The notes below the pieces were generated by a model. That model saw only the letters and a program-made list of their open reading frames with translations. It was not told where the DNA came from and did no database searches. The position numbers and the translations under genes were made by a program. From Gallionella sp. (GTDB lineage Bacteria > Pseudomonadota > Gammaproteobacteria > Burkholderiales > Gallionellaceae), in NCBI GenBank assembly GCA_028687575.1, contig JAQTZW010000003.1:1-64000 (forward strand): DNA of 64,000 nucleotides, read 5' to 3'. This document shows positions 30,989 to 47,501 of this stretch, piece by piece; positions within the stretch are counted from its first letter, which is position 1, and every line of letters starts with the position of its first letter.

Positions 30989-31014
30989 GATCTATCCTTA
31001 ATTTTGAAAGTTGA

Positions 31015-31398
31015 TTATTTTTGTTCGACATTCATTTCCAGCTTCAAGTCGGTGGCGGACGAGTTCGGTGCCACGCTCTTGACGGTCTGCAACTGCAGGC
31101 CGTACAGCCCCATCTGTTTCCAGGATTCGCCGTCGCCGACCTGATTGCCCATGTCGTCCAGCCAGCGGAAGCGGTAGAACACCGTGCGGTTGGCGCGGAC
31201 GGTGTTTTCAAGGTCGGCCTGCACGGTCAGGATGTCGTTCTTGCGCACGATGCGCATCTCCGCCACTCTGACCCCGTAGGGTTCGCCCCGCAGTGCGACC
31301 TTGGCGGCCACGGCAGGCGGGGTCGGATTGGCTGGTTGGGCGGCATGTGCGAGGCAGGTCATGCAGCCGAGTGTTGCAGCTAGCAGCAATGATTTCAT
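31015..31398 (-). CDS. YcfL-like (DUF1425) exported protein
   Basis: A 127-residue protein with signal MKSLLLAATLGCMTCLAHAA. The DUF1425-type beta-sandwich contains VQADLENTVRANRTVFYRFRWLD and ends in a QLQTVKSVAPNSSATD segment. ATG 31398 is supported by AGGA 8 bp upstream; the frame extends to 31437 without a better site. In E. coli ycfL is next to lpoB (ycfM) and of unknown function. Here it lies 26 bp upstream of the lpoB-like gene in the same direction. Confidence 0.78.
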   Translation of the reverse strand: MKSLLLAATLGCMTCLAHAAQPANPTPPAVAAKVALRGEPYGVRVAEMRIVRKNDILTVQADLENTVRANRTVFYRFRWLDDMGNQVGDGESWKQMGLYGLQLQTVKSVAPNSSATDLKLEMNVEQK

Positions 31399-31485
31399 CG
31401 TTACGTTCCTTTGCATAATAAAAATTGGCACGATCATCCGGTTGAAAGTCTGTCATCCTTGTAGACGGCAGACCTGTGGGTATTG

Positions 31486-32997: not shown

Positions 32998-33473
32998 AAC
33001 AATCTCCCTGATGCGATGTATTGTCAGAGATGCCTGTCCGATCTTGCCGGTGGGCAACCCTGTCGTTATTGGAAACATTCTCATGTTTTTGCCGCAGCCG
33101 GGAGCAATTCTATGTGATTGCTTGTTTTTCCAGCCTTGACCGGCTCAAACACATTGTTGCATCTGTGCCGTCAATTAACCGGGCACAGGGTGCGGATTAT
33201 ATACATAGACAATTGATTTCAGGTTGAAAATCGTGTCGGTTTCGGAGTGCTAATGTCGTGGCTGCGGAAAGCGGTGTGTCTGCCCCTTGAGGTGGCTCCG
33301 GCATTGCCGATTTCGGCAATTTATTGACCGTCTGCCGAGGTGGAAATCAGTCAGACTGCCGACAGCCATCAGACCTGTCGCGATACTGCAACGCGCACGG
33401 CGATTATTCGGTAATATTGCGTTCGCGCGTCGTTCTGGCGCGGCTTTTCGTTGCGACGAATCAGGGTGTACAT
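32998..33473. other. Divergent intergenic region, COG3014 operon / sucC
   Basis: About 475 bp between divergent genes with no supportable coding region. It should carry promoters for both directions. An AT-rich segment (GATTATATACATAGACAATTG, about 33194-33214) is the most promoter-like part, but no confident -35/-10 pair is seen. Long open frames here are only upstream extensions of the flanking genes. Confidence 0.4.
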
Positions 33474-34640
33474 ATGAAAATTCACGAATATCAAGGTAAG
33501 GAAATCCTGCGCCAGTTCGGCGTTCCGACGCCGCGCGGCATGGCGTGTTTCACGGCTGACGAAGCCGTGGCTGCGGCCCGCGAGCTGGGCGGTACGGTGT
33601 GGGTGGTGAAGGCGCAGATCCACGCCGGCGGGCGCGGCAAGGGTGGCGGCGTCAAGGTGGCCAAATCGCTGGACGAGGTGCGTCAGCATGCGCAGGCCAT
33701 ACTCGGCATGCAGCTGGTCACCCATCAGACCGGCCCGGATGGCCAGCGCGTGCGTCGCCTGCTGATTGAAGAGGGGGCGCAGATCGCCCGCGAATTCTAT
33801 ATCGGCATGGTGGTCGATCGCGCGGCGCAGCGCGTGGCGCTGCTGGCTTCGAGCGAAGGCGGCATGGAGATCGAAGAGGTCGCCAAACACAGCCCGGAAA
33901 AGATACACACGCTGAGGATTCATCCCGTTGATGGGTTGGCTGACGCCGAGGCCGCGCAAGCCGCGCGCCAGATCGGCCTGCCCGAGGCCGCCATCGCCGG
34001 GGCGGTGACGGTGCTGCAAGGCTTGTATCGCGCCTTTGTCGAAAAAGAGGCGATGCTGGCCGAGATCAATCCGCTGGTGCTGACGGCTGACAACCGCGTG
34101 CTGGCGCTGGATGCCAAGTTCAATTTCGATTCCAACGCGCTGTTCCGCCATCCCGAGATCGTCGCCTATCGCGATCTGGACGAGGAAGATGCCGCCGAGA
34201 TCGAGGCATCAAAATTCGATCTGAGCTATATCTCGCTGGATGGCGACATCGGCTGTCTGGTGAACGGCGCGGGGCTGGCGATGGCGACCATGGACATCAT
34301 CAAGCTGTATGGCGGCAGTCCGGCCAACTTCCTGGACGTTGGCGGGGGGGCTACCACCGAGAAGGTCACCGAGGCGTTCAAGCTGATGCTGAAGAACCCG
34401 AACCTGAAAGCGATTCTGGTCAACATCTTTGGCGGCATCATGAAGTGCGACGTGATCGCCGAAGGCGTGGTGGCAGCCGCGCGCGAGGTTCAGCTCACCG
34501 TGCCGCTGGTGGTGCGGCTGGAGGGCACTAACGTCGATCTCGGCAAGAAGATACTGGCTGAGTCCGGTCTGCCTATCATTTCCGGCAACGATATGGCGGA
34601 CGCAGCCGAAAAAGTGGTTGCCGCCGCGAGAGGTCAATAA
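33474..34640 (+). CDS. sucC: Succinyl-CoA ligase, beta subunit
   Basis: A 388-residue ATP-grasp subunit starting [16 protein letters not shown], the family start. Conserved segments: [34 protein letters not shown], and [13 protein letters not shown]. With SucD it interconverts succinyl-CoA and succinate with ATP formation in the TCA cycle. ATG 33474 is chosen; the frame is open 150 bp further upstream, but that peptide is unrelated to the family. The stop overlaps the sucD ATG by one base. Confidence 0.97.
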
Positions 34641-35521
34641 TGTCCATCCTGATCAACAAAGACACCAAAGTCATCACCCAGGGTATGACTGGCAAGGTCG
34701 GCCAGTTCCATACTTTCCATTGCAAGCAATACGCCAATGGCGCGAACTGCTTTGTCGCCGGGGTCAACCCGAAAAAGGCCGGCGAGACGTTCGACGGCAT
34801 CCCGGTCTATGCCTCGGTGCGCGATGCGAAGGCCGCGACCGGTGCCACGGTTTCGGTGATCTACGTGCCGCCGTCGGGGGCGGCTGCGGCGATAGACGAG
34901 GCGGTCGAGGCCGACCTCGATCTGGTGATATGCATCACCGAGGGCATTCCGGTGCACGACATGATCCGCACGCGCTACAAGATGGCAGGCAAAAAGACGC
35001 TGCTGATCGGACCGAACTGCCCCGGCCTGATCACGCCGGACGAGATCAAGATCGGCATCATGCCGGGCCACATCCACAAGAAAGGGCGTATCGGCGTGGT
35101 GTCGCGTTCCGGCACGTTGACATACGAGGCGGTCGGCCAGCTTTCCGCGCTGGGATACGGGCAATCGTCGTGCGTGGGCATCGGCGGCGACCCGATCAAT
35201 GGCATGAAGCATATAGATGTGATGAGGCTGTTCAACGACGATCCCGACACCGATGCGGTGGTGATGGTCGGTGAGATCGGCGGCAGCGACGAGGAAGAAT
35301 GCGCGCGCTGGATCAGGGACAACATGCAAAAGCCGGTGGTTGGCTTCATCGCCGGCGTCACTGCGCCGGAAGGCAAGCGCATGGGACACGCCGGCGCGAT
35401 CATCTCCGGCGGGCAGGGCGGCGCTGACGAGAAGCTGGCTGTGATGGAATCGTGCGGCATCCATATCACCCGCAATCCCGCCGAGATGGGGCGCGTGATG
35501 CAGAAAGTGCTTATAGGCTGA
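34640..35521 (+). CDS. sucD: Succinyl-CoA ligase, alpha subunit
   Basis: A 293-residue CoA-binding subunit: ITQGMTGKVGQFHT near the N-terminus, GPNCPGLITPDE, and the phosphohistidine region MGHAGAIISGGQG. Full length. Partner of SucC, translationally coupled to it. Confidence 0.97.
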   Translation: MSILINKDTKVITQGMTGKVGQFHTFHCKQYANGANCFVAGVNPKKAGETFDGIPVYASVRDAKAATGATVSVIYVPPSGAAAAIDEAVEADLDLVICITEGIPVHDMIRTRYKMAGKKTLLIGPNCPGLITPDEIKIGIMPGHIHKKGRIGVVSRSGTLTYEAVGQLSALGYGQSSCVGIGGDPINGMKHIDVMRLFNDDPDTDAVVMVGEIGGSDEEECARWIRDNMQKPVVGFIAGVTAPEGKRMGHAGAIISGGQGGADEKLAVMESCGIHITRNPAEMGRVMQKVLIG

Positions 35522-35531
35522 GCAGGGTTGG

Positions 35532-35601
35532 CACGCGGAGACGCGGGGAACGCGGAGAAATCGTTCTGGCTTTGACTCCGCGCACTCCGCGTCTCCGCGT
35601 G
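35532..35601. repeat. 70-bp palindromic repeat (REP-like) after sucD
   Basis: Left arm 35532-35557 (starts CACGCGGAGACGCGGGGAAC) and right arm 35576-35601 are inverted copies with about four mismatches over 26 bp, around an 18-nt loop. The arms themselves are made of direct GCGGAG units. This is the pattern of bacterial intergenic REP-like elements. It starts 11 bp after sucD and ends 69 bp before the TerC-family start, so it may end or stabilise the sucCD transcript. Confidence 0.75.
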
Positions 35602-35670
35602 AGTTGGAAGTGTTCAGGCAGGGCTTTTACCTGGCTTCCCCTTACGCTCCAAAATTTGGAAGGGAATGTT

Positions 35671-36426
35671 GTGCTGGAAATGTTGAGTTCCGCCCAGTTC
35701 TGGGTGGATGTAATGAAAATCATCCTGATTGATCTGCTGCTGTCCGGCGACAATGCCGTGGTGATCGCGCTGGCTTGCCGCAATCTGCCGCCGGAGCAGC
35801 GCAAGAAGGGCATTTTGTTTGGTGTCGGCGGTGCAATCGGTTTGCGCATCGTGCTGACGTTCTTTGCCGTCAGTTTGTTGTCGCTGCCGTATCTCAAGCT
35901 GGTGGGCGCTTTCCTGCTGATCTGGATAGGTGTCAAACTGATCCTGCCGGAAGAGGAGCACGACGAGGGTAACATCAAGGCCGATACGCGGTTGTTCGGG
36001 GCGGTCAAGACCATCATCATCGCCGACTTCGTGATGAGCCTGGACAATGTGCTGGGCGTGGCGGGGGCTGCCAAGGGCAACATCGCGTTGCTGGTGTTCG
36101 GCCTGCTGATCAGCATTCCGCTGATCGCCTGGAGCAGCCAGCTGGTGCTGAAACTGATAGATCGCTTCCCATATATTATTTACGGTGGTGGCGCGTTACT
36201 GGGCTATGTGGCCGGCGAGATGCTGGTGACCGAGGCATCGTTTGCCGGGTTGGTTGAAACATACCATGCCCTGCACTGGCTCGTTCCGGGATGTTGTGCG
36301 GTTGCAGTATTGCTGATCGGCAGATGGTTGGCGCTACGTTCTGCGGCAGGGGATGCTCCAGTCAACCTGTTGGATGGAGAGGTAGCTGTTGAGCCAGAAA
36401 ATAATCGGCCTGTCGGGAAGGAATAG
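35671..36426 (+). CDS. TerC/YjbE-family integral membrane protein
   Basis: A 251-residue protein with seven predicted membrane helices. The TerC hallmarks are ILIDLLLSGDNAVVIALA near the start and IIIADFVMSLDNVLGVAGAA in the second half, each placing an acidic residue in a helix. This subgroup (YjbE-like) is linked to metal-ion export, notably Mn2+, in other bacteria; the substrate here is inferred. GTG 35671 is chosen because GGAAGGGA (35658-35665) sits 5 bp upstream. The frame is open far upstream through the palindrome and sucD, which is an artefact. No Mn riboswitch is recognisable upstream. Confidence 0.85.
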   Translation: MLEMLSSAQFWVDVMKIILIDLLLSGDNAVVIALACRNLPPEQRKKGILFGVGGAIGLRIVLTFFAVSLLSLPYLKLVGAFLLIWIGVKLILPEEEHDEGNIKADTRLFGAVKTIIIADFVMSLDNVLGVAGAAKGNIALLVFGLLISIPLIAWSSQLVLKLIDRFPYIIYGGGALLGYVAGEMLVTEASFAGLVETYHALHWLVPGCCAVAVLLIGRWLALRSAAGDAPVNLLDGEVAVEPENNRPVGKE

Positions 36427-36430
36427 AGAA

Positions 36431-36859
36431 ATGATGAAAATATTGATTCCGCTGGATGGTTCAACCAGTGCCGAGCGTGCGGTGCAGTATGTCGTCGGCC
36501 AGATGGCTGAACTGAAGGCACGGCCTCAGGTATTGCTGTTGAATGTGCAATGGAAGATCGGCACCGGCAATGTCAAAATGTTTATTGATCAGAACACGAT
36601 CAACGACTATTACCGCGAACAGGGCATGGCGGCGCTGGCAGGCGGGCGTGCCATTCTGGATGAGGCGGGATTGCCTTATCAGTATCACATCAGCATCGGC
36701 TCTCCTGCCGAGGCCATCGCCCAGTACGCCCGCGAACAAGAAGCGGATCAGGTGGTGATGTGCAGACAGGGGCAGGGAGGCTTGCAGCAGTTGTTGCTCG
36801 GCTCGGTAGTGAGCAAGGCGCTGCATCTGGTTGGGTGTCCGGTGTTGCTGGTCAAATGA
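36431..36859 (+). CDS. Universal stress protein, UspA family
   Basis: A 142-residue Usp domain: MMKILIPLDGSTSAERAV at the start and the ATP-binding type G-x2-G-x9-G-S pattern near GQGGLQQLLLGSVV, ending in CPVLLVK. ATG 36431 is preferred, with GGAAGGAA ending 7 bp upstream. It lies just 4 bp after the TerC-family gene and is probably in the same transcript. Its signal is unknown. Confidence 0.88.
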   Translation: MMKILIPLDGSTSAERAVQYVVGQMAELKARPQVLLLNVQWKIGTGNVKMFIDQNTINDYYREQGMAALAGGRAILDEAGLPYQYHISIGSPAEAIAQYAREQEADQVVMCRQGQGGLQQLLLGSVVSKALHLVGCPVLLVK

Positions 36860-36964: not shown

Positions 36965-39517
36965 ATGAATAAGCTGGATTTCTGGAAAAAGGACTGGTTC
37001 GCAGGTTTGCTGTTGGCGTTGGTTTTTGTGTTGGCTTCCAACAGTGATTTGTTGCAAAGTCTTGAGCGCAAGGCCTACGACCTGGCAATGGTGTCGTCGT
37101 CGCGCCAACCCAGCAACAAGGTTGCGGTGATCGTGATAGACGATGCAAGCATCGCCAATATCGGGCGTTGGCCTTGGCCGCGCGAGATACATGCCGGAAT
37201 GATAGACATCCTGACGGCGGGGCATGCCAAGGCCATCGGCCTGACGACTTTCTTCGTCGAGCCGCAAGTTGACCCTGGTTTGAAATATATCCAGAAGATT
37301 GCGGCGTTGCTGGGGAAGGATACTTCTGGCAAGGCAGAGGCAACGGGCGGGAAGGCTGAGCTTGATGCCGTACTGCAGGATGCGGCGGTTCATCTTGATC
37401 ATGACCGTCAACTTGCTGCCAGCATGGCCGGTTCCGGCAATGTGCTGTTGCCGATGTTCTTTGAATTGGGGGAGTCGCTGGGGCGACCCGATCAACCTTT
37501 GCCGGACTATGTTCAGAGTAATCGGTTGACCAATGTGCAAAGCGGTGAAGTGTCGGGGGCGCTTTCTGCATCGAGTGTGTTGTTTCCGATCCCGGAGTTG
37601 GGCAGCAAGTCCAGTGCTCTTGGGCATCTCAACAGTTTCCGTGATGAAGATGGTGCGATACGTACCGAGCCGCTGGTGGTGCGCTATTACGATCAATACT
37701 ACCCATCCATGGCGCTGATGTTGGCTGCAAAAAGCCTTAATCTCGGGCCGCAGGACATCCAGGTCGAACTTGGTAAGAGGGTTAAGCTGGGTGGGCGCGA
37801 GATAGCCGGCGGTGCTGATATGCGCATGCATACCTATTTCTATCAGGATGCGAATGGCCAGCCGGCTTTTAATCCGGATTCCTTTTACGATGTGTATAGC
37901 GGCAAGATTTCGGCAGAAAAATACCGCGACAAGATTGTCCTGATCGGCGCATCGGCTGCCGGTGTTGGTACCTTGCAAGTCACGCCGGTGTCCTGGGGGA
38001 TGCCTTCCACCGTCACTTTGGCGCACTCAGTGTCCAGCATCCTGCAGGGAGATGCCCTGCAAGTCCCCACGTGGGCGGGTCCCGCCAGAGCCGCAGCCTT
38101 TCTGTTGGTGGTGTTATATCTGGTTATCGTATTGCCGGGGCTGAAGGCGATGCCTGCAGCCGGGGTGACTAGCCTGTTCTTTATCGCGTTGCTGGGTACG
38201 CATTTCGTCTTGATGTCCACGGAAGGCGTTTGGGTGCAGTTGATGTTGCCAGCGACCCTGTTGCTTGCCGGACATTTGTTGTTGACCACCAAACATTTCC
38301 TGACGACCGAACGCGGCAAGTTGAAGTCTGATGCTGAATCGGCTGAAAGCAATCGCATGCTGGGCTTGGCCTTTCAGGGGCAGGGGCAACTGGATATGGC
38401 GTTCGACAAGTTCCGCAAGGTTCCGCTGGACAGTGGCGTGATGGAGGTGTTGTATAACCTTGGCCTGGATTTTGAACGCAAGCGCCAGTTCAATAAGGCC
38501 GAATCGGTTTTCAGGTATATGAGCGAATACGACCCGGAGTTCTGCGACCTGCCGCAACGGATGAAACGGATGCAGAATCTGTCGCAGACGGTCATGCTGG
38601 GCGGTACGACCGGCAGCCGGATGCGTAGCCGGATCATGCTGGAGAGCGATGGCATCACGCGGCCCACACTGGGACGTTATGTGATCGAGAAAGAATTGGG
38701 CAATGGGGCAATGGGGGTGGTGTATTTCGGCAGGGATCCGAGGATAGGCCGCGAGATGGCGATCAAGACGATGAGCCTGTCTCAGGAGTTCGCAGGCAAG
38801 GAGTTGGATGAGGCGAGAGAGCGTTTCTTCCGGGAGGCGGAGTCTGCCGGCCGTCTGAATCATCCGGACATCGTGGCTATCTACGATGCCGGCGAGGAGC
38901 ATGATCTGGCTTATATTGCGATGGAGTACCTCCGGGGCGAGGATTTGACGGCCTATGCGGAAGCAGGGAACTTGTTGCCGCTGGCGACTTTGATGGAACT
39001 TATTGCGCGCGTGGCAGATGCGCTGGATTACGCACACCGGCAGAATGTGGTGCACCGCGACATCAAACCGGCGAATATCATGTATGACGCTGCCACCAAC
39101 ATGCTCAAGGTGACCGACTTTGGTTTGGCGCGCATCACCGATGCCAACAAGACCAGAACGGGGGTCATCTATGGCACGCCGTCCTACATGTCGCCTGAAC
39201 AATTGGCCGGCAAGAAGATAGACGGGCAGTCCGATCTGTTCTCGCTGGGCGTGACCTTGTATCAACTGGCTTGTGGTAAGCTCCCGTTCGAGGGTGATTC
39301 ACTGGCTCAGCTTATGTATCGTATTGCTTATAACCCACCTCCTGATATTTTGGATTTCAGGTCAGACCTGCCGCCTTGTCTGGTGGCAGTCATCAATAAG
39401 GCGCTATCCAAGCGGCATGAGGATCGTTATGCCAATGGGGAGGAAATGGCTGATGCATTGCGCCGGTGCGCTGCCAGCTTACAAGGGCAGAGTCAGTCTG
39501 CGGGAGTGAATGTATGA
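36965..39517 (+). CDS. CHASE2-domain membrane Ser/Thr protein kinase
   Basis: An 850-residue receptor kinase. One N-terminal helix (about 12-30) leads into an extracytoplasmic CHASE2 domain (about 35-345, with VIDDASIANIGRWPWPRE). Three helices at about 365-440, two TPR-like repeats (about 460-530), then a Hanks-type kinase (about 568-830): glycine loop GNGAMGVVYFG, MAIKT with the ATP Lys, VVHRDIKPANIM, TDFGLARI and GTPSYMSPEQ. All catalytic residues are present. It likely senses an envelope signal and phosphorylates cytosolic targets. The stop overlaps the PP2C start (ATGA), so kinase and phosphatase are coupled. Confidence 0.93.
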   Translation: MNKLDFWKKDWFAGLLLALVFVLASNSDLLQSLERKAYDLAMVSSSRQPSNKVAVIVIDDASIANIGRWPWPREIHAGMIDILTAGHAKAIGLTTFFVEPQVDPGLKYIQKIAALLGKDTSGKAEATGGKAELDAVLQDAAVHLDHDRQLAASMAGSGNVLLPMFFELGESLGRPDQPLPDYVQSNRLTNVQSGEVSGALSASSVLFPIPELGSKSSALGHLNSFRDEDGAIRTEPLVVRYYDQYYPSMALMLAAKSLNLGPQDIQVELGKRVKLGGREIAGGADMRMHTYFYQDANGQPAFNPDSFYDVYSGKISAEKYRDKIVLIGASAAGVGTLQVTPVSWGMPSTVTLAHSVSSILQGDALQVPTWAGPARAAAFLLVVLYLVIVLPGLKAMPAAGVTSLFFIALLGTHFVLMSTEGVWVQLMLPATLLLAGHLLLTTKHFLTTERGKLKSDAESAESNRMLGLAFQGQGQLDMAFDKFRKVPLDSGVMEVLYNLGLDFERKRQFNKAESVFRYMSEYDPEFCDLPQRMKRMQNLSQTVMLGGTTGSRMRSRIMLESDGITRPTLGRYVIEKELGNGAMGVVYFGRDPRIGREMAIKTMSLSQEFAGKELDEARERFFREAESAGRLNHPDIVAIYDAGEEHDLAYIAMEYLRGEDLTAYAEAGNLLPLATLMELIARVADALDYAHRQNVVHRDIKPANIMYDAATNMLKVTDFGLARITDANKTRTGVIYGTPSYMSPEQLAGKKIDGQSDLFSLGVTLYQLACGKLPFEGDSLAQLMYRIAYNPPPDILDFRSDLPPCLVAVINKALSKRHEDRYANGEEMADALRRCAASLQGQSQSAGVNV

Positions 39518-40341
39518 GGTTAATCGAGGCGCTGGAAGTTGTCAGTGAAACTCATCCGGGCATGTTAAGGGCGCACAACGAGGATAGTGTGGCGGTGGAG
39601 CCGGCTTGCGGCTTGGTGGTGCTTGCGGATGGCATGGGCGGCTATAACGCCGGGGAAGTGGCGAGCGGAATCGCGGTGACGGTGATGATCAGCGAGATCG
39701 TCCCGGCTTTGGCTGATGCCACCCCGATCCAGCGAGATGAAGAGACCGGTGAGGAATTGGCGGTCGTGTCGCTGGGAGCCGCTATTCGCAAGGCAAACGC
39801 CTCCATTTTTAATGCGGCGCGCAGCCAGTCGCAATATGCCGGAATGGGAACGACAATCGTGTCCGCACTGTTTTATGACAACAGGGTGGTCGTTGGGCAT
39901 GTCGGCGATTCGCGTGCCTATCGCTTGCGCGGGGAGAGACTGGAGTTGCTAACGCGTGACCATTCCCTGTTACAGGAGCAAATAGACAGCGGCATGATCA
40001 GCGTCGAGAATGCTCGGCATTCCAAAAACAAGAACCTGGTCACGCGTGCCGTAGGCATAGATGGAGAAGTGCTGCCGGAACTGCATGTACACGATGTGTT
40101 GGTCGGCGATATTTACCTGCTGTGTTCGGATGGTTTGAACGATATGGTCGAAGATGGCGATATCGAGTCTGCGCTGTATGGTTTGCAGGGGAATCTGCCG
40201 ATGGCGGCTGAGCAATTGATCCAGTGCGCCAATGACAATGGTGGTCGTGACAACGTTTCGGTGATTCTGGTGAAGATTAAACATGAGTATGCACAGCCGC
40301 GTAGCTGGCCGGTGCGTTTGCTCGATTGGTTCAAGAAATAA
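39514..40341 (+). CDS. PP2C-type Ser/Thr phosphatase
   Basis: A 275-residue PPM/PP2C phosphatase with the metal-binding signatures intact: AHNEDSVAVE, VLADGMGGYNAGEVAS, VGHVGDSRAYRL, LLCSDGLNDMV, and GGRDNVSVILV. No membrane helix. ATG 39514 overlaps the kinase stop, and the open frame upstream (to 39466) lies in the kinase tail. It should reverse phosphorylation by the preceding kinase, in the style of PrkC-PrpC or PknB-PstP pairs. Confidence 0.92.
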   Translation: MRLIEALEVVSETHPGMLRAHNEDSVAVEPACGLVVLADGMGGYNAGEVASGIAVTVMISEIVPALADATPIQRDEETGEELAVVSLGAAIRKANASIFNAARSQSQYAGMGTTIVSALFYDNRVVVGHVGDSRAYRLRGERLELLTRDHSLLQEQIDSGMISVENARHSKNKNLVTRAVGIDGEVLPELHVHDVLVGDIYLLCSDGLNDMVEDGDIESALYGLQGNLPMAAEQLIQCANDNGGRDNVSVILVKIKHEYAQPRSWPVRLLDWFKK

Positions 40342-40352
40342 GGGGGGCTGCC

Positions 40353-41138
40353 ATGACTGCTAAGTTGATATTAAGTCTGGATGGAGTGGTGGTGCAGGAA
40401 TGTCCGCTGATCAAAGAGCGGGTGACAATCGGGCGCAAGGCGCATAACGATATCGTCATCAATAATCTCGCCGTGAGCGGCGTGCATGCGGCGGTGGTTA
40501 CTATCCTCAACGACTCTTTTTTGGAGGACTTGGATAGTACTAATGGCTTGTCAGTGAATGGAGAGGTGACAAAAAAGCACTTCTTGCAGAACAATGATGT
40601 CATCGAAATCGGTAAGTACAAACTGAAGTATCTGAATGACCAGGTCAGTCAGACATCTGCCAGCGATTTTGAGAAGACCATGATGATGCATGCACCTGCG
40701 ATTCCGGTTCAGTCAGCCGCTGAGAAGTCAGGGGATACCGGGCATTACAGAGCCTTGCAGGGGGCTGCGATTGAGGAATCGGGCGGTGATACACGGTTAG
40801 GCTATGACAGGGTTGCCAAGACAGGCCCCAACCCTGTGGTGCCACCACCACTTTCGCCGGCACAGCCGGCAAGCCGGGCGGCTGCGGTACAGATACTCAA
40901 TGGTCCCAATGCAGGCAAGGAGCTCGAGTTGGTGAAAAGCCTGACTACGCTTGGCAAGCCCGGTGTCCAGGTGGCCGTGTTGACACGTCGCCCACTTGGT
41001 TATTTCATCACCCATGTCGAGGGAGCTATTTTCCCATCCGTGAATGGTCAGGCGCTGGGAGAGCAACCGCATCAGTTAAACGATCATGACGTGATTGAAC
41101 TGGCCGGCGTGAAGATGGAGTTCTATTTCAAGGACTGA
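40353..41138 (+). CDS. Double FHA-domain phosphopeptide-binding protein
   Basis: A 261-residue soluble protein. The N-terminal FHA domain (about 5-95) has VTIGRKAHNDIVINN, the SGVHA core, and DSTNGLSVNG. A Pro/Ser/Ala-rich linker with several Ser/Thr (about 105-180) follows, then a C-terminal FHA-like domain (about 185-260) that is degenerate, with LGKPGVQVAVLTRR instead of the G-R-x-x-x-N-D loop but keeping SVNGQAL. FHA domains bind phosphothreonine. Its place 11 bp after the phosphatase makes it the likely effector or scaffold of this kinase pathway. Confidence 0.88.
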   Translation: MTAKLILSLDGVVVQECPLIKERVTIGRKAHNDIVINNLAVSGVHAAVVTILNDSFLEDLDSTNGLSVNGEVTKKHFLQNNDVIEIGKYKLKYLNDQVSQTSASDFEKTMMMHAPAIPVQSAAEKSGDTGHYRALQGAAIEESGGDTRLGYDRVAKTGPNPVVPPPLSPAQPASRAAAVQILNGPNAGKELELVKSLTTLGKPGVQVAVLTRRPLGYFITHVEGAIFPSVNGQALGEQPHQLNDHDVIELAGVKMEFYFKD

Positions 41139-41170
41139 CAATCCGCCATAAAAAATAAGAATGGTTGAAT

Positions 41171-41935
41171 ATGAGGCTTAGCGTATTAGGATGTAGTGGG
41201 GGTATAGGTGGCAGTTCGCACACCACTACATTATTGGTGGATCAGGATATATTGATAGACGCAGGGACCGGGTTGAATGAACTCAGTCTGAGTGAATTGT
41301 GCGAGATAGATCACGTTTTTCTCACACACTCCCATCTGGATCACATTTGCTGTCTTCCTTTCCTGGTGGATAGCGTAGGCTGGATGCGTGACCGCCCATT
41401 GACGGTCTATGCGAGCGGCGCAACCATAGAAACGCTTAGAAATCATATTTTTAACTGGAGCATCTGGCCGGACTTTTCCGAGATACCTAATGTAAAACAG
41501 CCCATCATGCGTTTCCGCGAAATTGGGTTGGGCGAGGTGGTGGAGCTGCAGGGACGCCGCATACGCGCCCTGCCGGCGACTCACACGGTTCCTGCGGTTG
41601 GCTATCATCTGGATAGCGGGCAGGGCAGCCTGGTTTTTAGCGGTGACACGCATGTCAACGATGACCTTTGGGAGTTGGTTAATCAGATAGAGAATCTCAG
41701 ATATCTGATAATAGAGACCGCCTTTTCCGAGAAGGAGCGAGCTTTGGCGGATCTTTCCCTGCACCTGTGCCCGAGTTTGCTGGCGGGTGAGCTGGCTAAG
41801 TTCAGGGGCGATGCCGAGGTCTATATCACACACCTGAAACCGGGTGAGGTGGATCTGACCATGCAGGAAATCGAGCGCCATGTGCAGCAGTCGCCCCCTA
41901 AAATGTTGCTGAACAATCAGGTGTTGGAGTTTTAG
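41171..41935 (+). CDS. Metallo-beta-lactamase-fold hydrolase (cyclic-nucleotide PDE-like)
   Basis: A 254-residue MBL-fold enzyme with all metal sites: THSHLDHICC (HxHxDH), ATHTVPAVGY, SGDTHVND and a late His in ITHLKPG. The arrangement resembles class II 3',5'-cyclic nucleotide phosphodiesterases and RNase Z-type MBL proteins. cAMP or another small phosphodiester is thus a plausible substrate, but this is not shown. ATG 41171 is used; TTG 41165 is possible. It is 32 bp after the FHA gene and in the same direction, so it is probably co-transcribed with the kinase group. Confidence 0.8.
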   Translation: MRLSVLGCSGGIGGSSHTTTLLVDQDILIDAGTGLNELSLSELCEIDHVFLTHSHLDHICCLPFLVDSVGWMRDRPLTVYASGATIETLRNHIFNWSIWPDFSEIPNVKQPIMRFREIGLGEVVELQGRRIRALPATHTVPAVGYHLDSGQGSLVFSGDTHVNDDLWELVNQIENLRYLIIETAFSEKERALADLSLHLCPSLLAGELAKFRGDAEVYITHLKPGEVDLTMQEIERHVQQSPPKMLLNNQVLEF

Positions 41936-42058
41936 TGAGAGGATGAGGCCGGGTTTGGTTTGACGAAGGTGGTTGGGGGGCACGTCTACCAAGTTTCCAA
42001 ATTACGCGAACGGGATGGTTCGTGTGTGTGCGATTGAACGAGCAGTGCAGGAGCAGGG

Positions 42059-44440
42059 ATGATTCCAACAGTAGACAGGCGCAGTAACGACATGAGCAGC
42101 AAACTTGAGTTCACTACGAATCTCAATCATGTCATCAATAAAATTCACGCGACCAATAATATTGACGAGATCATGCTGGATGTCAGCAAGGACATTTGCG
42201 CCTTGTTCAATTCTGACAGGCTGACCATCTATGTCCTCGGTGAGGATAATGTTTCGCTGGTTTCCAAAGTCAAGACGGGGCTGAATTCCTTCAAGGATCT
42301 CAAGCTGCCAATCGCCGAGCAGAGCGTGGCCGGTTATGTGGCTGTCAACAAGAAGCTGCTCAACATCATGGATGTCTATGATGAGCAGGAGTTGGCCAGG
42401 TATAGCCCACATTTACGTTTTTTGAGGGAAGTAGATAAACGTACCGGATACCGTACCAAACAGATGTTGGTGGCACCGATTCTGGATGGGGTGAATGGTG
42501 ACTTGATAGGCGTTATCCAGATCATCAATAACAAGGGGGGGATTCCCTTTTCACCTCAGGTTGAGGAAGGTGTCGTCGAGCTGGCGCAAACCATGGCGGT
42601 CGCATTGCGTCAGCGTCAGGAAAGAGCCGCAGTCAAGACGCGCTACGACTATCTGGTGGCGGGTGGGGTGATGTCAGCACCGGAATTTGAGCTGGCTACT
42701 CGTACCGCACGGCGCAAGGGCGTGGAAGTAGAAGAGGTATTGCTGGATGAATTTCAAGTCAGCTTGGCCGCTTTGGGTGGCGCATTGTCCCATTTCTTTG
42801 GCGTTGCTTATGAGCCATTCAAGGCGGATCGCATCAAGCCCTCCGATCTGCTACGCAATCTCAAGCGTGAATTTGTCGAGAGTAGTCACTGGGTGCCGGT
42901 AGAGGAAACGCAGGAAGGTGTCGTGATTCTGACCACCGATCCCGAGCGTATCCAGGCATCCAGGGTGGTCAACAACATCTTTCCCCGGAATAGGCTGGTT
43001 TACAAGGTTTGCGCGCAGCGCGAATTCAGACAGACGTTAGATGCCTTCTATGGTGGCGGAGATCTTGGTTTTAATGGTAAGGCGGAGGATGGCTCCACGG
43101 TTGACGAGCTGTTGTCCAGCATGGGAGGGGACGAAGATGAAAGCTCGGTCCTCACACAGGAAGATGTCAATGCGGCGGCAGACAACGAGCTGGTCAAGCT
43201 GGTCAACAAGATTATTGTGGATGCCTATCGCATGGGTGCGTCCGATATCCACGTCGAACCGCAGCCCGGCAAGGCCAAAACGCAAATTCGTTTGCGTAAG
43301 GATGGTGCGCTGTTGAATTACATCGAAGTGCCTTCCACCTATCGCAATGCGTTGGTGACGCGCCTGAAGATCATGTGTGATCTGGATATTGCCGAGAAGC
43401 GCCGCCCGCAGGACGGCAAGATCAAGTTCAAGAAATTTGGGCCTCTGGACATCGAGTTGCGTGTAGCGACCATCCCGTCGCAGGGTGGGGTTGAAGATGT
43501 CGTGATGCGTATTCTGGCGGCGGGCGAACCTTTGCCGCTTGAGAAAATGGGCTTCTCGGAGCGCAATAATGAGCTGATAAAACATACGGTCAGCAAGCCC
43601 TACGGTCTGTTTTTCGTTTGCGGGCCAACCGGTTCCGGTAAAACGACCACGCTGCATTCCATTCTGAGCTACATCAACAAGCCTGAAACCAAGATATGGA
43701 CTGCCGAAGACCCCGTGGAGATCACCCAGAAGGGGTTGCGGCAGGTGCAGATCAACAAGAAGGCCGGCATGGATTTTGCGACGGTCATGCGCGCCTTCCT
43801 GCGTGCCGATCCTGATGTGATCATGGTCGGTGAGATGCGCGACAAGGAGACTGTTTCTATCGGCATCGAGGCATCGCTGACCGGTCACCTGGTGTTTGCC
43901 ACCCTGCATACCAATAGCGCGCCTGAATCCATCATCCGCTTGCTGGACATGGGGATGGACCCATTCAATTTTGCCGATGCCTTGCTGGGTATCCTGGCCC
44001 AGCGTCTGGCAAGACGCTTGTGCAGTGACTGCAAGAAGCCGCATGTTGCGAGCGAGGCCGAGATAAAAGAGCTGATGGCCGAGTACAGCGAGGAGCTGAA
44101 ACATACTGTCCGCTGGAAAGCTGCTCCCGACGCTGCCCGCAAGGCGCTGCTGGATGAGTGGACCCGGCTGTATGCCAATGACAAGAAGCAATTTACGCTC
44201 TACACGCCGGTGGGATGCGACAAGTGCATGGGGACGGGCTATCGCGGGCGCGTGGGCTTGCATGAATTACTGATAGGCAGCGACCCGGTGAAGCGGGCCA
44301 TCCAGGAACATGCGCGGGTCGCCGAATTGTTGGCCATTGCGCTGGATGAAGGTATGCGCACCCTGAAGCAGGACGGTATGGAGAAAGTCTTGCAGGGCAT
44401 TACCGACATGCATCAGGTGCGCGCCGTCTGTATCAAATAA
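42059..44440 (+). CDS. GAF-fused type IV pilus/type II secretion assembly ATPase
   Basis: A 793-residue fusion. An N-terminal GAF domain (about 15-185, after M-S-S-K-L-E-F) is followed by a GspE/PilB N-terminal domain (about 200-265, VEVEEVLLDEFQVSLAALG) and a complete secretion ATPase (about 375-785). The ATPase has Walker A FVCGPTGSGKTTT (about 522), the Asp box and His boxes (AEDPVEITQKG, HLVFATLHTNSA), and a four-Cys zinc site (CSDCKKP and CDKCMG). Canonical PilB is about 570 residues, so the GAF is an addition. RBS AGGAG lies before ATG 42059. It may power pilus extension, with the GAF sensing a small ligand. It follows the MBL gene by 123 bp and no pilC, pilD or pilM-Q genes are adjacent. 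Confidence 0.88.
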   Translation: MIPTVDRRSNDMSSKLEFTTNLNHVINKIHATNNIDEIMLDVSKDICALFNSDRLTIYVLGEDNVSLVSKVKTGLNSFKDLKLPIAEQSVAGYVAVNKKLLNIMDVYDEQELARYSPHLRFLREVDKRTGYRTKQMLVAPILDGVNGDLIGVIQIINNKGGIPFSPQVEEGVVELAQTMAVALRQRQERAAVKTRYDYLVAGGVMSAPEFELATRTARRKGVEVEEVLLDEFQVSLAALGGALSHFFGVAYEPFKADRIKPSDLLRNLKREFVESSHWVPVEETQEGVVILTTDPERIQASRVVNNIFPRNRLVYKVCAQREFRQTLDAFYGGGDLGFNGKAEDGSTVDELLSSMGGDEDESSVLTQEDVNAAADNELVKLVNKIIVDAYRMGASDIHVEPQPGKAKTQIRLRKDGALLNYIEVPSTYRNALVTRLKIMCDLDIAEKRRPQDGKIKFKKFGPLDIELRVATIPSQGGVEDVVMRILAAGEPLPLEKMGFSERNNELIKHTVSKPYGLFFVCGPTGSGKTTTLHSILSYINKPETKIWTAEDPVEITQKGLRQVQINKKAGMDFATVMRAFLRADPDVIMVGEMRDKETVSIGIEASLTGHLVFATLHTNSAPESIIRLLDMGMDPFNFADALLGILAQRLARRLCSDCKKPHVASEAEIKELMAEYSEELKHTVRWKAAPDAARKALLDEWTRLYANDKKQFTLYTPVGCDKCMGTGYRGRVGLHELLIGSDPVKRAIQEHARVAELLAIALDEGMRTLKQDGMEKVLQGITDMHQVRAVCIK

Positions 44441-44463
44441 GGAGACGCTGATTTATTCGAGAT

Positions 44464-44572
44464 CGTCGTTCCCACGCAAAGGGGTATGCAGGCAAACCGC
44501 AAAGCGGCTGCTCGCATAGCGGGAGCCCAGTTAAATCCAAAGGCAGGATATCCGCCTGCGCGGGTATGACGA
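44464..44572. repeat. MITE-like palindromic element between ATPase and HD-GYP genes
   Basis: A 109-bp element with inverted ends: CGTCGTTCCCACGC at the left and GCGCGGGTATGACG at the right. The core (44481-44527, GGGGTATGCAGGCAAACCGC onwards) is repeated with roughly 80% identity at 49880-49926. A second GC palindrome (CCGCCTGCGCGG) lies near the right end. It occupies most of the 216-bp gap, so the HD-GYP gene may have its own promoter near 44580-44650. Confidence 0.65.
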
Positions 44573-44656
44573 ATCAATCGGTGCTTTTCCAAGTATCAAC
44601 GCCCTTGCCAGGCCGGCTGGTGGGGGCTGTGTTTCGCAGCTAACGATGGTGCACTT

Positions 44657-46270
44657 ATGTCAACTGACCAAAAACCAATTGCGCGACTGAAGGAACTCAA
44701 CGAAATCGGTATTGCACTGTCACAGCAGCGCGATATCAATGACCTGCTCAAACTGATACTGGACGCGGCCAAACGCATCACCCATGCCGATGCCGGTACG
44801 CTTTACCTGTACGATGCCGAGCAGCAGGTGTTGCGCTTCGAGATCGTGCGCAACGATAGCTTGCAAATATCAATGGGTGGTGCAGCAGGCAAGCCCATCG
44901 TATTTAATCCGGTACATCTATTCGATGAGAACGGCAAGCCAAATCACAGTATGGTGGTTAGCCATGCGGCTTTGACGGGCGAAACGGTCAACATCCCCGA
45001 TGCCTACGCGGCCCAAGGTTTCGACTTTTCGGGTACCAAGAGTTTCGATAGCAAGTCCGGCTATCATTCCAAGTCGTTCCTGACGGTACCGATGTGTAAC
45101 CATGAGGGCGAAGTGATCGGCGTGCTGCAATTGATCAATTCGCTGGTGAGGGGTGTCGTCGCTGCCTTTTCTGCCGATGATCAACGGTTGGTCGAATCGC
45201 TCGCTTCGCAGGCAGCAATTGCGCTAACCAACCGCAAGCTCATCAATCAGCTCGAAGAGCTGTTCGAATCCTTCATCAAACTGATCAATAGTGCGATTGA
45301 TGACAAGTCGCCCTATACCGGCGGGCATTGCGCACGTGTGCCTGAACTCACCATGATGATCGCCGAGGCGGTCAACAATACCTACCAAGGGCCGCTCAAG
45401 GATTTTGTCCTGACCGAGCGTGACCGGCACGAGTTGCGGATTGCCAGCCTGTTGCATGATTGCGGCAAGATAACGACTCCTGTACATGTCGTGGATAAAC
45501 CGACCAAACTGCATACCTTGTTCGACCGTATCGGGCTGGTGGACACCCGATTTGAATTACTAAAACGCGATGCCGAGATTGCCATGCTCAAGAAGCAGGT
45601 GGCGGGTAGCGGTGATGAGGCTGAGTTTCGAGCCGAATATCAGGCGCGTATCCGGCAATTGGACGATGACCGCGAGTTTCTGCGCCAGTGCAATCGCGGC
45701 GTCGAGGCGATGCCCGAGGCTGCGCAACAACGCGTTTGCGATATCGCCAGTTACCAGTGGCAGGATGCAACTGGGCGCATGAGTAATTTTCTCAGCGAAG
45801 ATGAAGTGAACAATCTGACGATACGCGCCGGCACGCTGACTGCCGACGAGCGCGAAATCATCAATCGTCATATTGTCGTGACTATCAAGATGCTGGAATC
45901 CTTGCCATGGCCCAGACAACTCAAAAATGTGCCCGAATACGCCGGTGGACACCATGAGCGCATGGACGGTAAAGGCTATCCGCGTGGGCTGACGCGCGAT
46001 CAGATGTCCTTGCAAGCCCGCATCATGGGCATCGCCGATATATTCGAGGCACTGACTGCCAAGGACAGGCCGTACAAGGTGGGCAAGTCGCTGACCGAGG
46101 CGCTGACCATACTAGGCAAGTTCAAGTTGGGCGGGCATATTGACCCGGATGTATTCGATGTCTTCATTCGCGAGAAAGTGTACCTGCGCTATGCGCAACA
46201 ATTCCTATCCTCTGAACAACTGGATGACGTGGATCTGGAGCACATACCGGGTGTGAATCTTGTCGACTGA
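44657..46270 (+). CDS. GAF-HD-GYP c-di-GMP phosphodiesterase
   Basis: A 537-residue soluble protein: GAF (about 25-180), a short helical linker, then HD-GYP (about 215-520). HD motifs: GGHCARVPEL, LHDCGKI (about 267) and GGHHERMDGKGYPRGL (about 432), plus the conserved IFEALTAKDRPYK. The distance between HDxGK and HHE is about 165 residues, versus 53 in the truncated HD-GYP at the left edge, because of an added 110-residue helical insert (LKRDAEIAMLKKQ and FRAEYQARIRQL). Likely hydrolyses c-di-GMP. Located between the ATPase and pilin genes. No strong ribosome-binding site before ATG 44657. Confidence 0.9.
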   Translation: MSTDQKPIARLKELNEIGIALSQQRDINDLLKLILDAAKRITHADAGTLYLYDAEQQVLRFEIVRNDSLQISMGGAAGKPIVFNPVHLFDENGKPNHSMVVSHAALTGETVNIPDAYAAQGFDFSGTKSFDSKSGYHSKSFLTVPMCNHEGEVIGVLQLINSLVRGVVAAFSADDQRLVESLASQAAIALTNRKLINQLEELFESFIKLINSAIDDKSPYTGGHCARVPELTMMIAEAVNNTYQGPLKDFVLTERDRHELRIASLLHDCGKITTPVHVVDKPTKLHTLFDRIGLVDTRFELLKRDAEIAMLKKQVAGSGDEAEFRAEYQARIRQLDDDREFLRQCNRGVEAMPEAAQQRVCDIASYQWQDATGRMSNFLSEDEVNNLTIRAGTLTADEREIINRHIVVTIKMLESLPWPRQLKNVPEYAGGHHERMDGKGYPRGLTRDQMSLQARIMGIADIFEALTAKDRPYKVGKSLTEALTILGKFKLGGHIDPDVFDVFIREKVYLRYAQQFLSSEQLDDVDLEHIPGVNLVD

Positions 46271-46400
46271 AGGGGGATGGCGGTATATGGGTTGTCTGGG
46301 TGACGAAAATCGTCACCTGACTGACGATAACTGGTTGGGCGGGTTCCGTAGATAAGCAGGCGGCTAAGGGGAATTTAGATAAATCAATGAGTTGCTAGTC

Positions 46401-46416
46401 TGGCACGGGAATTGCT
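46401..46416 (+). promoter_or_regulatory. Sigma-54 (RpoN) promoter of the pilin gene
   Basis: TGGCACG-N4-TTGCT matches the -24/-12 consensus exactly, with the GG and GC dinucleotides correctly spaced. It is 97 bp upstream of the pilin ATG. RpoN/PilR control of pilA is established in Pseudomonas and Neisseria relatives. Confidence 0.85.
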
Positions 46417-46512
46417 TTATAATTACCAAGCACACACAGGGTGTGTTTGCCGCAAGCCGGAAAGTGCGACTTGAAGGCTGAAGAAATCAAATTTATTAAC
46501 TAGGAGCTTGAT

Positions 46513-46947
46513 ATGAAAAATGTACAAAAAGGTTTTACCCTGATCGAATTGATGATCGTTGTTGCGATCATCGGTATTCTGGCTGCCGTTGCGATCCCGG
46601 CTTACCAGGATTACACCGCCAAGGCGCAAGCTTCTGAAGCTTTCGTGCTGCTGGATGGTCTGAAGTCTTCTATCTCCGATACAGTCGGTCAAGATCCTTC
46701 TGCAACAGGCTGCGCAATTCCAGCTGGTGCTGTGACTGCCGGTAAGTATGTTGCCACCATCACTGCAGCTTGGGGTGCTCCTAACTGCGACCTGACTGCT
46801 ACTTACAAGGCTGCTGGCGTTGCAACTCCGCTGCAAGGCAGAACCGTTATCCTGCGTTTTGATAGCGGTACCGGTGCGTTTGTTACATCTCAAGCAACAA
46901 CTAGTGGTACTTTGCCAGTCAAGTTTATCCCAGTTGCCTGGAAGTAA
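46513..46947 (+). CDS. pilA: Type IV major pilin PilA
   Basis: A 144-residue prepilin. The leader MKNVQKG is short and basic, cleavage would be before Phe in KG/FTLIE, and Glu5 of the mature protein is present. The helix [22 protein letters not shown] is typical, and a C-terminal Cys pair (TGCAIP and PNCDL) forms the likely D-loop. RBS AGGAG (about 46502-46506). A strong terminator follows and a sigma-54 promoter precedes it, so it is expressed as a monocistronic high-level pilin. A near-copy lies just downstream. Confidence 0.95.
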
Positions 46948-46992
46948 TAGCTACTCAGGTTCAGGTCAAGCTGGCATGAACCTGATGTGCTG

Positions 46993-47024
46993 AAATAAGC
47001 CTCCTTTGGGAGGCTTATTTTTTT
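46993..47024 (+). terminator. Rho-independent terminator after pilA
   Basis: Twelve-base arms AAATAAGCCTCC and GGAGGCTTATTT enclose a 4-nt loop and run into a T tract ending at 47024. Confidence 0.9.
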
Positions 47025-47066
47025 ATGTTGTGGTAGCATCCAAAAAAACTAGCGGATGGGGGAGGT

Positions 47067-47501
47067 ATGACGCATTCTCAAAAGGGATACACCATGATAG
47101 AGGTATTAATTGTCATGGCGATCATCGGCATCCTGGCCGCCTTGGCTATGTCTAGCTATCAATATAATATTGCCAAATCTCAGTCAGTCGAAGCTTTCGA
47201 TCTGCTGGGTGGATTGAAATCCACCATCATTGCGGATGTGGCCCAAGAGCCCTCTGTCTACACTTGCGGCTTACCGCCCAAATCGGTGACCTCGGGTAAC
47301 TATGTGGCTTCCATCGTGGCGCAGTGGAACCCGCCCAATTGTGACTTGGTGGCAACTTTTGCCAATACCGGGATTGCCCAGCCCTTGCGGGGCAAGACGG
47401 TCATCTTGCGGTTTGACAGCACCACCGGATTCTTCGTGATGAGCAAGGCGGCGACTGGTTTCACACTTCCTGCGGAGTATGTGCCTTCAAATTGGAAATG
47501 A
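47067..47501 (+). CDS. Second type IV pilin, PilA paralog
   Basis: A 144-residue prepilin of exactly the same length as the pilin upstream, with leader MTHSQKG and cleavage before Tyr in KG/YTMIEV. Glu5 is kept. The first helix is altered ([19 protein letters not shown], lacking the usual Pro22). The body is collinear with the upstream pilin ([36 protein letters not shown]), with the same Cys pair (YTCGLP and PNCDL). RBS GGGGGAGG lies just before ATG 47067. It is separated from pilA by a terminator, so expression may be lower or from its own promoter. Confidence 0.9.
   Translation: MTHSQKGYTMIEVLIVMAIIGILAALAMSSYQYNIAKSQSVEAFDLLGGLKSTIIADVAQEPSVYTCGLPPKSVTSGNYVASIVAQWNPPNCDLVATFANTGIAQPLRGKTVILRFDSTTGFFVMSKAATGFTLPAEYVPSNWK

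Follow-up and report, generated by a model that had tools for sequence, protein, structure and literature searches.

A conserved Gallionella locus joins a GAF-fused PilB paralogue, probably a type IV pilus extension motor, to kinase, phosphatase, FHA and cyclic-nucleotide genes

In the PpkA-PppA-Fha pathway of type VI secretion a membrane Ser/Thr kinase, a PP2C phosphatase and an FHA protein encoded in one cluster control an envelope machine. FHA switches of the GarA/OdhI kind are driven by Thr phosphorylation, and in the CyaB-Vfr pathway of Pseudomonas cyclic AMP (cAMP) controls type IV pili by transcription. The locus described here lies at positions 36965 to 47501 of the window, which is the whole stretch of 64,000 nucleotides analysed, taken from a 2.9-Mb draft assembly of a Gallionellaceae genome (Gallionella sp., contig JAQTZW010000003.1), and encodes a CHASE2 kinase, a PP2C phosphatase, an FHA protein, a metallo-beta-lactamase-fold (MBL) hydrolase, a PilB-like ATPase with an N-terminal GAF domain (GAF-PilB), a GAF-HD-GYP protein and two pilins. 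Kinase, PP2C and FHA protein are clustered as in the type VI system, from which the locus differs in the CHASE2 sensor of the kinase, in the type IV pilus machine and in an FHA protein that reaches 35 of 120.25 bits with the TagH model, far under the cut-off. No type VI secretion gene was among the 20 open reading frames (ORFs) of the window that were scanned with Pfam; no such search was made in the remainder of the genome. GarA and OdhI are among the closest solved structures to the first FHA domain (FHA1), with the difference that the Thr considered here lies in a linker between two domains and that of GarA/OdhI is N-terminal.

Second-messenger control of pilus ATPases has been described in other arrangements. 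MshE/PilB-type ATPases are regulated by cyclic di-GMP (c-di-GMP) through the MshEN domain (PMC5013675). As in these, a pilus or secretion ATPase would use its N-terminal domain to read a nucleotide messenger, and GAF-PilB also has an MshEN domain; it differs in having no match to the c-di-GMP motif model NF053729 and in the CyaB2-like GAF domain fused in front. In the PilB-PilZ-FimX system of Xanthomonas, c-di-GMP acts via separate proteins (PMC10333796); PilB is likewise under second-messenger control there, whereas in the present locus the sensor is fused to PilB and is accompanied by kinase, phosphatase, FHA and cyclase genes. The GAF domains of Anabaena CyaB2 (1YKD; PMC4411481) are the closest solved ones by sequence and share the conserved Arg, Thr and Asp, but here the output is a pilus ATPase and the Asp of the NKFDE motif is missing. 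The Synechocystis Cya1-Sycrp system places type IV pili under cAMP control through a Crp-like regulator, that is, at transcription (PMC7690835). Pilus function is under cAMP control in such Crp-like systems, which act on transcription, the level at which a link between cAMP and type IV pili has long been known, whereas a cAMP-type pocket in PilB would put the messenger on the motor itself. Every part of the locus belongs to a known family. The statement of a preliminary description that it knew of no described system with such a composition is upheld to the extent that neither the gene combination nor a cAMP-binding PilB was described in the titles and abstracts searched, a weak test of absence.

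GAF-PilB (42059..44440, plus strand, 793 aa) consists of GAF, MshEN and T2SSE domains. The T2SSE match (PF00437) is 390.2 bits, and Walker A and B patterns are present in 100 of 101 sequences. With the standard PilB model TIGR02538 the score is 485.5 bits against an equivalog cut-off of 675.65, and because this cut-off is missed GAF-PilB is classed, by its sequence, as a PilB-like paralogue and not as a member of the standard family.

The distribution of the two ATPases was compared in 120 genomes of the order. Presence was defined for GAF-PilB as a match to the GAF query at E<1e-40 (56 of 66 genomes with any match, one of them, G119, with a 191-aa frame only), for type IV pilus PilC as at least 528 bits (93 of 103) and for standard PilB as a TIGR02538 score over the cut-off. 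PilC was found in 93 genomes, standard PilB in 68 and both in 62, and in 61 of these 62 the standard pilB adjoins pilC. GAF-PilB is present in 30 of the 31 PilC genomes without standard PilB, including the window genome, versus 26 of the 62 with it (Fisher p 7e-8, uncorrected for phylogeny), and all 56 GAF-PilB genomes have PilC. In the sole exception (G106) the FHA matches lie 344 bp from a contig end, and GAF-PilB may be missing from the assembly. In roughly half of the genomes sampled that carry it, GAF-PilB seems to have taken the place of the standard motor, a replacement that explains many sampled genomes with pilC but without standard pilB.

The genomic context agrees with this pattern. 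No standard PilB over the cut-off was found in the window genome, where pilC is followed by pilD, coaE and zapD and a CorC-like gene and lgt occupy the place expected for pilB; a role as accessory motor beside a standard PilB is thereby ruled out for this genome. The 2-3 kb before pilC in four other genomes without standard PilB contain no PilB-like ORF. In a tree of the ATPase domain (30 of 35 rows kept, among them 5 of 8 standard PilBs; midpoint root, with a long-branch warning) the GAF-PilBs form one clade, sister to a second PilB-like ATPase of the window genome, and both together are sister to standard PilB. Because of the replacement pattern, the pilC context and the ATPase tree, GAF-PilB is most likely the paralogue that took over from standard PilB as the main type IV pilus extension motor. 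This identity is well supported; the confidence attached to it, like that for the ligand and for the action of the kinase module below, is a judgement and not a computed value. The association with pilus extension made in the preliminary description is thus borne out by the distribution of PilC, PilB and GAF-PilB.

The surroundings of GAF-PilB are conserved far beyond the window genome. Matches to the FHA protein came from 55 of 60 genomes in the family, from 78 of 120 in the order and, many of them weak, from 137 of 274 in the class. Neighbourhoods of up to 20 kb around the FHA gene were taken from 80 genomes (20 family, 40 order and 20 class) and their genes labelled with profiles built from the window proteins; the loci were picked by FHA match, so co-occurrence is conditional on FHA, and some loci end at contig ends. 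Named loci numbered at least 80, of which 71 were left after removal of 9 duplicates, many on short contigs, and with the window these made a set of 152. Among the matches listed, the named loci come from Gallionella, Sideroxydans, Nitrotoga, Sulfuritalea, Sulfuricella, Azonexus, Dechloromonas, Zoogloea, Accumulibacter, Azoarcus and others. The family loci contained PP2C in 20 of 20, GAF-PilB in 20, MBL in 17, GAF-HD-GYP in 16, CHASE2 kinase in 15, pilin in 15 and a CHASE2 cyclase, a gene absent from the window cluster, in 13. Corresponding counts for the 40 order loci were PP2C 37, MBL 31, GAF-PilB 27, GAF-HD-GYP 25, cyclase 22, kinase 21 and pilin 21, and for the 20 class loci PP2C 19, kinase 13, cyclase 10, MBL 2, GAF-HD-GYP 2 and GAF-PilB 0. 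The 71 named loci, again among the matches listed, gave PP2C 69, MBL 58, GAF-PilB 53, cyclase 43, GAF-HD-GYP 41 and CHASE2 kinase 38.

The arrangement across the order is sucC-sucD-TerC, CHASE2 kinase, PP2C, FHA, CHASE2 cyclase, MBL, GAF-PilB, GAF-HD-GYP and pilin, with losses. Within the order it is kept wherever the genes occur, with rare exceptions such as L150, and kinase, PP2C, FHA, cyclase, MBL, GAF-PilB and GAF-HD-GYP are all seven present in 52 of the 152 loci, some of which have incomplete flanks. GAF-PilB is present in 101 of the 152 loci (the named part being those among the matches listed). The nearest labelled gene within 1.5 kb upstream of it is MBL in 90 of the 101, and the nearest within 1.5 kb downstream is GAF-HD-GYP in 79; the linkage around GAF-PilB is therefore not due to chance. 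In the distant genome G295 (same class, outside the order), a span of 12 kb (L240, 1-12032) holds a CHASE2 cyclase, a GAF-HD-GYP protein, a GAF-MshEN-T2SSE protein and an MBL protein that matches PDEase_II, on mixed strands, and the 20-kb stretch gave no match to the kinase, PP2C or FHA profiles. Cyclase and MBL are therefore tied to the motor there without a common ancestral gene order. The family and order loci and L240 bear out that linkage extends beyond one strain, the first test that the preliminary description had set for itself.

The additional CHASE2 protein, of about 740 aa, directly follows FHA in 13 of the 20 family and 22 of the 40 order loci. In these first neighbourhood counts the label cyclase denotes a CHASE2 protein without a kinase domain, and in the later ones a match to the cyclase profile. 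CHASE2 and a class III nucleotide cyclase output domain (PF00211) were found in 3 of 3 proteins tested. In the alignment (n=86) the two metal Asp are present in 85 and 86 sequences, the substrate-site Lys and Thr in 86 each and the transition-state Asn and Arg in 86 of 86 each. The Lys/Thr pair is presumably the pattern of Anabaena-type adenylyl cyclases, that is, for ATP. By these residues the ninth gene of the relatives is classed as a class III cyclase of adenylyl-cyclase type, and it belongs to the set in over half of the relatives' loci. Kinase and cyclase occur together in 63 of 115 loci with enough flank and are both absent from 39; 9 loci, including the window, have the kinase only and 4 the cyclase only, kinases without recognised CHASE2 being scored as absent. 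The window genome has a divergent cyclase copy on contig C4 (L115:8143-10413), which forms a long branch outside the clade of the Gallionellaceae in-cluster cyclases. At E<=1e-100 a cyclase was found in 41 of 60 family genomes, and in one genome (G044) a copy 75% identical to the query lies on a contig other than that of FHA. Two more CHASE2 proteins of the window genome (L116:8945-10702 and L117:9213-10733) have no output domain recognised by Pfam.

The composition of the locus, its conservation, the replacement pattern, the conserved cAMP contacts and the Thr motifs, all as read from the sequences, point to a ligand, phosphorylation events, a direction of control and a link from kinase to pilus that would be as follows. 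The CHASE2 kinase would read the cell envelope, as would the CHASE2 class III cyclase in more than half of the relatives' loci. In the kinase, autophosphorylation would target a Thr of the juxtamembrane linker (motif T-[VM]-[IM]-L), FHA1 would dock the FHA protein on this linker, and the FHA protein would be phosphorylated at its own linker motif FEKT-M-V-L, with PP2C resetting the phosphorylation of both. The cyclase would make cAMP and the MBL hydrolase would probably remove a cyclic nucleotide; cAMP would bind the N-terminal, CyaB2-like GAF domain of PilB and gate pilus extension, and HD-GYP would lower a cyclic dinucleotide in parallel. GAF-PilB would replace the lost standard PilB and work with PilC and PilD, encoded elsewhere, and with PilA next door. 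A conserved envelope-signal system with Thr phosphorylation and cAMP inputs, acting on a GAF-gated alternative type IV-a PilB, is a reading that stands in even balance. More tentative is the specific proposal that cAMP from the CHASE2 cyclase directly switches GAF-PilB, with kinase, PP2C and FHA as a second input and standard PilB replaced in many betaproteobacterial lineages. If true, this would be, to our knowledge, the first case of direct allosteric control of a pilus motor by cAMP. For surface sensing in betaproteobacteria such as Gallionella, Nitrotoga and Accumulibacter, the cluster offers candidates for the signals and for their writers, erasers and readers.

The phosphorylation side is encoded by the first three genes. 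The kinase (36965..39517, plus strand, 850 aa) is a CHASE2-TPR-Ser/Thr protein kinase with Pfam matches to CHASE2 and protein kinase. The PP2C-type Ser/Thr phosphatase (39514..40341, plus strand) has a Pfam PP2C match and 231.1 bits with NF033484 (cut-off 230); its ORF opens at a GTG at 39466, the likely start being the ATG at 39514. The FHA protein (40353..41138, plus strand) comprises FHA1, a linker and a degenerate second FHA-like domain. The phosphothreonine-site pattern of FHA1 is conserved, GR..S..H in 155 of 155 and S[TL]NG in 153 of 155, and in comparison with solved structures FHA1 is closest to GarA, OdhI and FhaA. Of the double-FHA reader proposed earlier, FHA1 is confirmed by Pfam, which matches the first domain only; the second has a confident beta fold in the structure model, lacks the GR..S..H residues in the alignment and drew no separate match in the structure list. 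The linker between them is of low confidence in the model. As variants among the relatives, one locus (L083) has a short kinase-type CHASE2 ORF of 270 aa, and in three (L076, L079 and L080) doubled PP2C-FHA pairs flank a kinase without recognised CHASE2.

The juxtamembrane linker of the kinase carries the Thr motif SQTVML at T542 (38588-38590, plus strand). A Thr motif is found at the same place in 72 of 86 relatives, mostly as SETVILGG, and a second copy in 50 of 86 is without counterpart in the window. The FHA linker starts with FEKTMMM in the window (Thr codon of FEKTM at 40677-40679, plus strand), and a motif of the T-x-x-[LIM] type is found there in 117 of 155 relatives, mostly as FEKTMVLR. 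Because FHA domains often select the +3 residue, the two linker motifs could plausibly be a docking motif common to both proteins. This is no more than suggestive, as the Thr pattern also occurs at conserved places of HD-GYP (80/83), SucD (43/49) and TerC (26/40), which counts against the proposed system. No conserved Thr pattern was found in the PP2C, cyclase, MBL, GAF-PilB and pilin alignments.

On these sequence features the kinase-FHA module may equally act on the pilus or not. An alternative, itself rather unlikely, is that GAF-PilB is a motor served by MBL, HD-GYP and cyclase, and that kinase, PP2C and FHA form a separate envelope-stress pathway without direct action on the pilus, the locus being shared through the CHASE2 cyclase or the sucCD-TerC-pilA synteny. 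CHASE2 kinase, PP2C and FHA occur without GAF-PilB in 13 of the 20 class loci, 10 of the 20 have a cyclase, and no GAF-PilB is found in those genomes; L240 combines GAF-PilB with cyclase, MBL and HD-GYP, and its stretch lacks the kinase genes; and in some order genomes (G105, G148 and G163) GAF-PilB and its HD-GYP lie far from FHA. Several further counts weigh against an action of the module on the pilus. GAF-PilB has a match in 6 of 274 class genomes, none of them among the 20 sampled; 43 of the 115 loci have an FHA gene and no CHASE2 kinase in the stretch, though a few of them hold a kinase without recognised CHASE2; the HRD pattern is present in 75 of 88 kinases; and 3 of the 56 GAF-PilB genomes lack FHA at the threshold used (E<=1e-18, passed by 73 of the 78 genomes with a match). 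A separate pathway is opposed, however, by the presence of FHA in 53 of the 56 GAF-PilB genomes versus 20 of the 64 others, and by the single gene order that holds across many families.

For the cAMP input of the proposed system the GAF domain of PilB is central. Its best sequence match in the PDB is Anabaena CyaB2 (2.5e-26 with the single sequence, 1.1e-33 with the profile). The cAMP contacts of the CyaB2 GAF domain given in PMC4411481 are R291, T293 and D356. R54, T56 and D126 of GAF-PilB align to these residues, which are kept in 98 of 98, 97 of 98 and 99 of 99 GAF-PilBs with a letter at the place, respectively. Five relatives at 34-40% identity also keep all three, and in the GAF domain of the adjacent HD-GYP protein the place of the Arg is taken by Gly or Ala in 76 of 86. 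Binding of a cyclic nucleotide by the PilB GAF domain is rather probable from this conservation, and cAMP in particular is slightly favoured as the ligand.

The NKFDE motif is typical of cyclic nucleotide monophosphate (cNMP)-binding GAF domains. In 99 GAF-PilBs it is partly kept (N 60, K 74, F 98 and E 80), with mostly V, A or M at the position of the Asp. As the motif is not complete, the PilB GAF domain is not filed as a cNMP-binding member, though it may work like one, and NKFDE was dropped as proof of cNMP binding. That the ligand is another one (cGMP, another cyclic nucleotide or a metabolite), with MBL acting on that or on RNA, is doubtful. The missing Asp favours it and weighs against cAMP, as does the nearest GAF domain by fold, that of PtsP, which is not a cNMP GAF. 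The MBL hydrolase (41171..41935, plus strand; Lactamase_B_2, HxHxDH present) matches PF02112 (PDEase_II) with 50.2 bits (cut-off 23.7) over only 80 of 340 positions and reaches 52.2 of 400 bits with NF041851; its likeness to class II phosphodiesterases is weak and does not exceed that to RNase Z, and an RNase Z-like enzyme was considered as a candidate role. The cyclase counts also speak against the cAMP reading. The window cluster has no cyclase, the FHA-MBL gap being only 32 bp; at E<=1e-100, 19 of the 60 genomes of the family (some of them incomplete) yield no cyclase; the GAF contact residues stay conserved in loci without cyclase; and cyclase and MBL were present in only 1 of 5 distant GAF-PilB loci, the other four showing GAF-PilB alone. 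On the other side stand the best sequence match, which is to a cAMP GAF, the Arg, Thr and Asp kept even in the five distant relatives, and the Gly or Ala in the HD-GYP GAF domain.

The GAF-HD-GYP phosphodiesterase (44657..46270, plus strand; Pfam GAF and HD-GYP) has about 100 residues between its Pfam matches to HD (222-282) and HD_5 (382-499). GAF-PilB of the window gave no match to the c-di-GMP motif model NF053729 at E<=0.001, which the ATPases of contigs C20 and C23 do match, and the RLG and Gln of the motif were not seen in the column counts of the GAF-PilB alignment. Control of GAF-PilB by c-di-GMP via MshEN is rejected on the missing match and motif residues. HD-GYP is unlikely to act on GAF-PilB through MshEN, as this domain lacks the match. 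Of the earlier claim that GAF and HD-GYP domains read and adjust nucleotide messengers, cyclic-nucleotide reading by the PilB GAF domain is plausible from the CyaB2 match and contacts, and an action of HD-GYP on PilB is unlikely to run via MshEN.

The second PilB-like ATPase of the window genome, on contig C20 (L118:5711-8092), consists of DUF4388, MshEN and the ATPase and matches NF053729 with 80.7 bits; a third, on contig C23, adjoins a GspF-like gene and scores 57.8 bits with the same model. One rival reading makes the C20 protein, with its c-di-GMP motif, the window genome's pilus motor and assigns GAF-PilB to another filament. In favour of this reading are a higher score of the C20 protein in the PilB model (528.3 vs 485.5 bits) and its position as sister to GAF-PilB in the tree, but the reading is improbable: among the 120 order genomes 6 have the C20 type (N-terminal part, E<=1e-25), and of the 31 with PilC and without standard PilB only 3 do (G000, G061 and G171). 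The C20 gene adjoins xseA and a sugar-transferase-like gene, and it is GAF-PilB that lies near pilA.

Pilin 1 (46513..46947, plus strand, 144 aa; PilA-like, N-methyl pilin match) is set off by 242 bp from HD-GYP. A pattern scan found a sigma-54-type promoter, TGGCAC-N5-TTGCT, at 46401..46416 (plus strand), 112 bp before it. The sigma-54 pattern precedes 35 of 79 pilins in the loci versus 0.25% of shuffles, and 0 or 1 match was found for each of six other gene classes; the control consisted of plain letter shuffles, and control-gene starts were set at the first Met of the frame. A terminator-like hairpin of 13 pairs with a 4-base loop and a T tail follows at 46992..47021 (plus strand), before pilin 2 (47067..47501, plus strand), an N-methyl pilin similar to pilin 1. 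Scans of the region for sigma-70 promoters and terminators, the 46992-47021 hairpin type included, gave no more sites than in shuffles. Owing to the gap, the promoter and the hairpin, pilin 1 is probably transcribed separately from its own sigma-54-type promoter, and a single operon of all eight genes is rejected on promoter and hairpin.

All eight ORFs of the window are open, lie on the same strand at the coordinates given earlier and have the domains assigned to them by the preliminary description, in agreement with their Pfam and NCBIfam matches. Each of the six non-pilin proteins has the catalytic or binding patterns for which it was checked. The close coupling of the first three genes is confirmed by the coordinates, as the PP2C ATG at 39514 and the kinase stop overlap, and the FHA ATG (40353) comes 11 bp after the PP2C stop. 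The set of eight holds as a linkage, with the corrections that pilin 1 is probably a transcript of its own and that the cyclase is an additional member in over half of the relatives' loci. The left flank (33324..36859, plus strand) consists of sucC, sucD, a TerC-family membrane protein and a universal stress protein (36431-36859, plus strand); sucC, sucD and TerC are kept in part of the relatives. Downstream, an M48 peptidase gene and valS lie on the opposite strand. By eye, the gap between GAF-PilB and HD-GYP (44441-44656) contains an apparent dispersed palindromic repeat. Further upstream, a minus-strand group (30374-33084) encodes an LpoB-like protein, a DUF1425 protein and a 532-aa protein with a weak TPR match.

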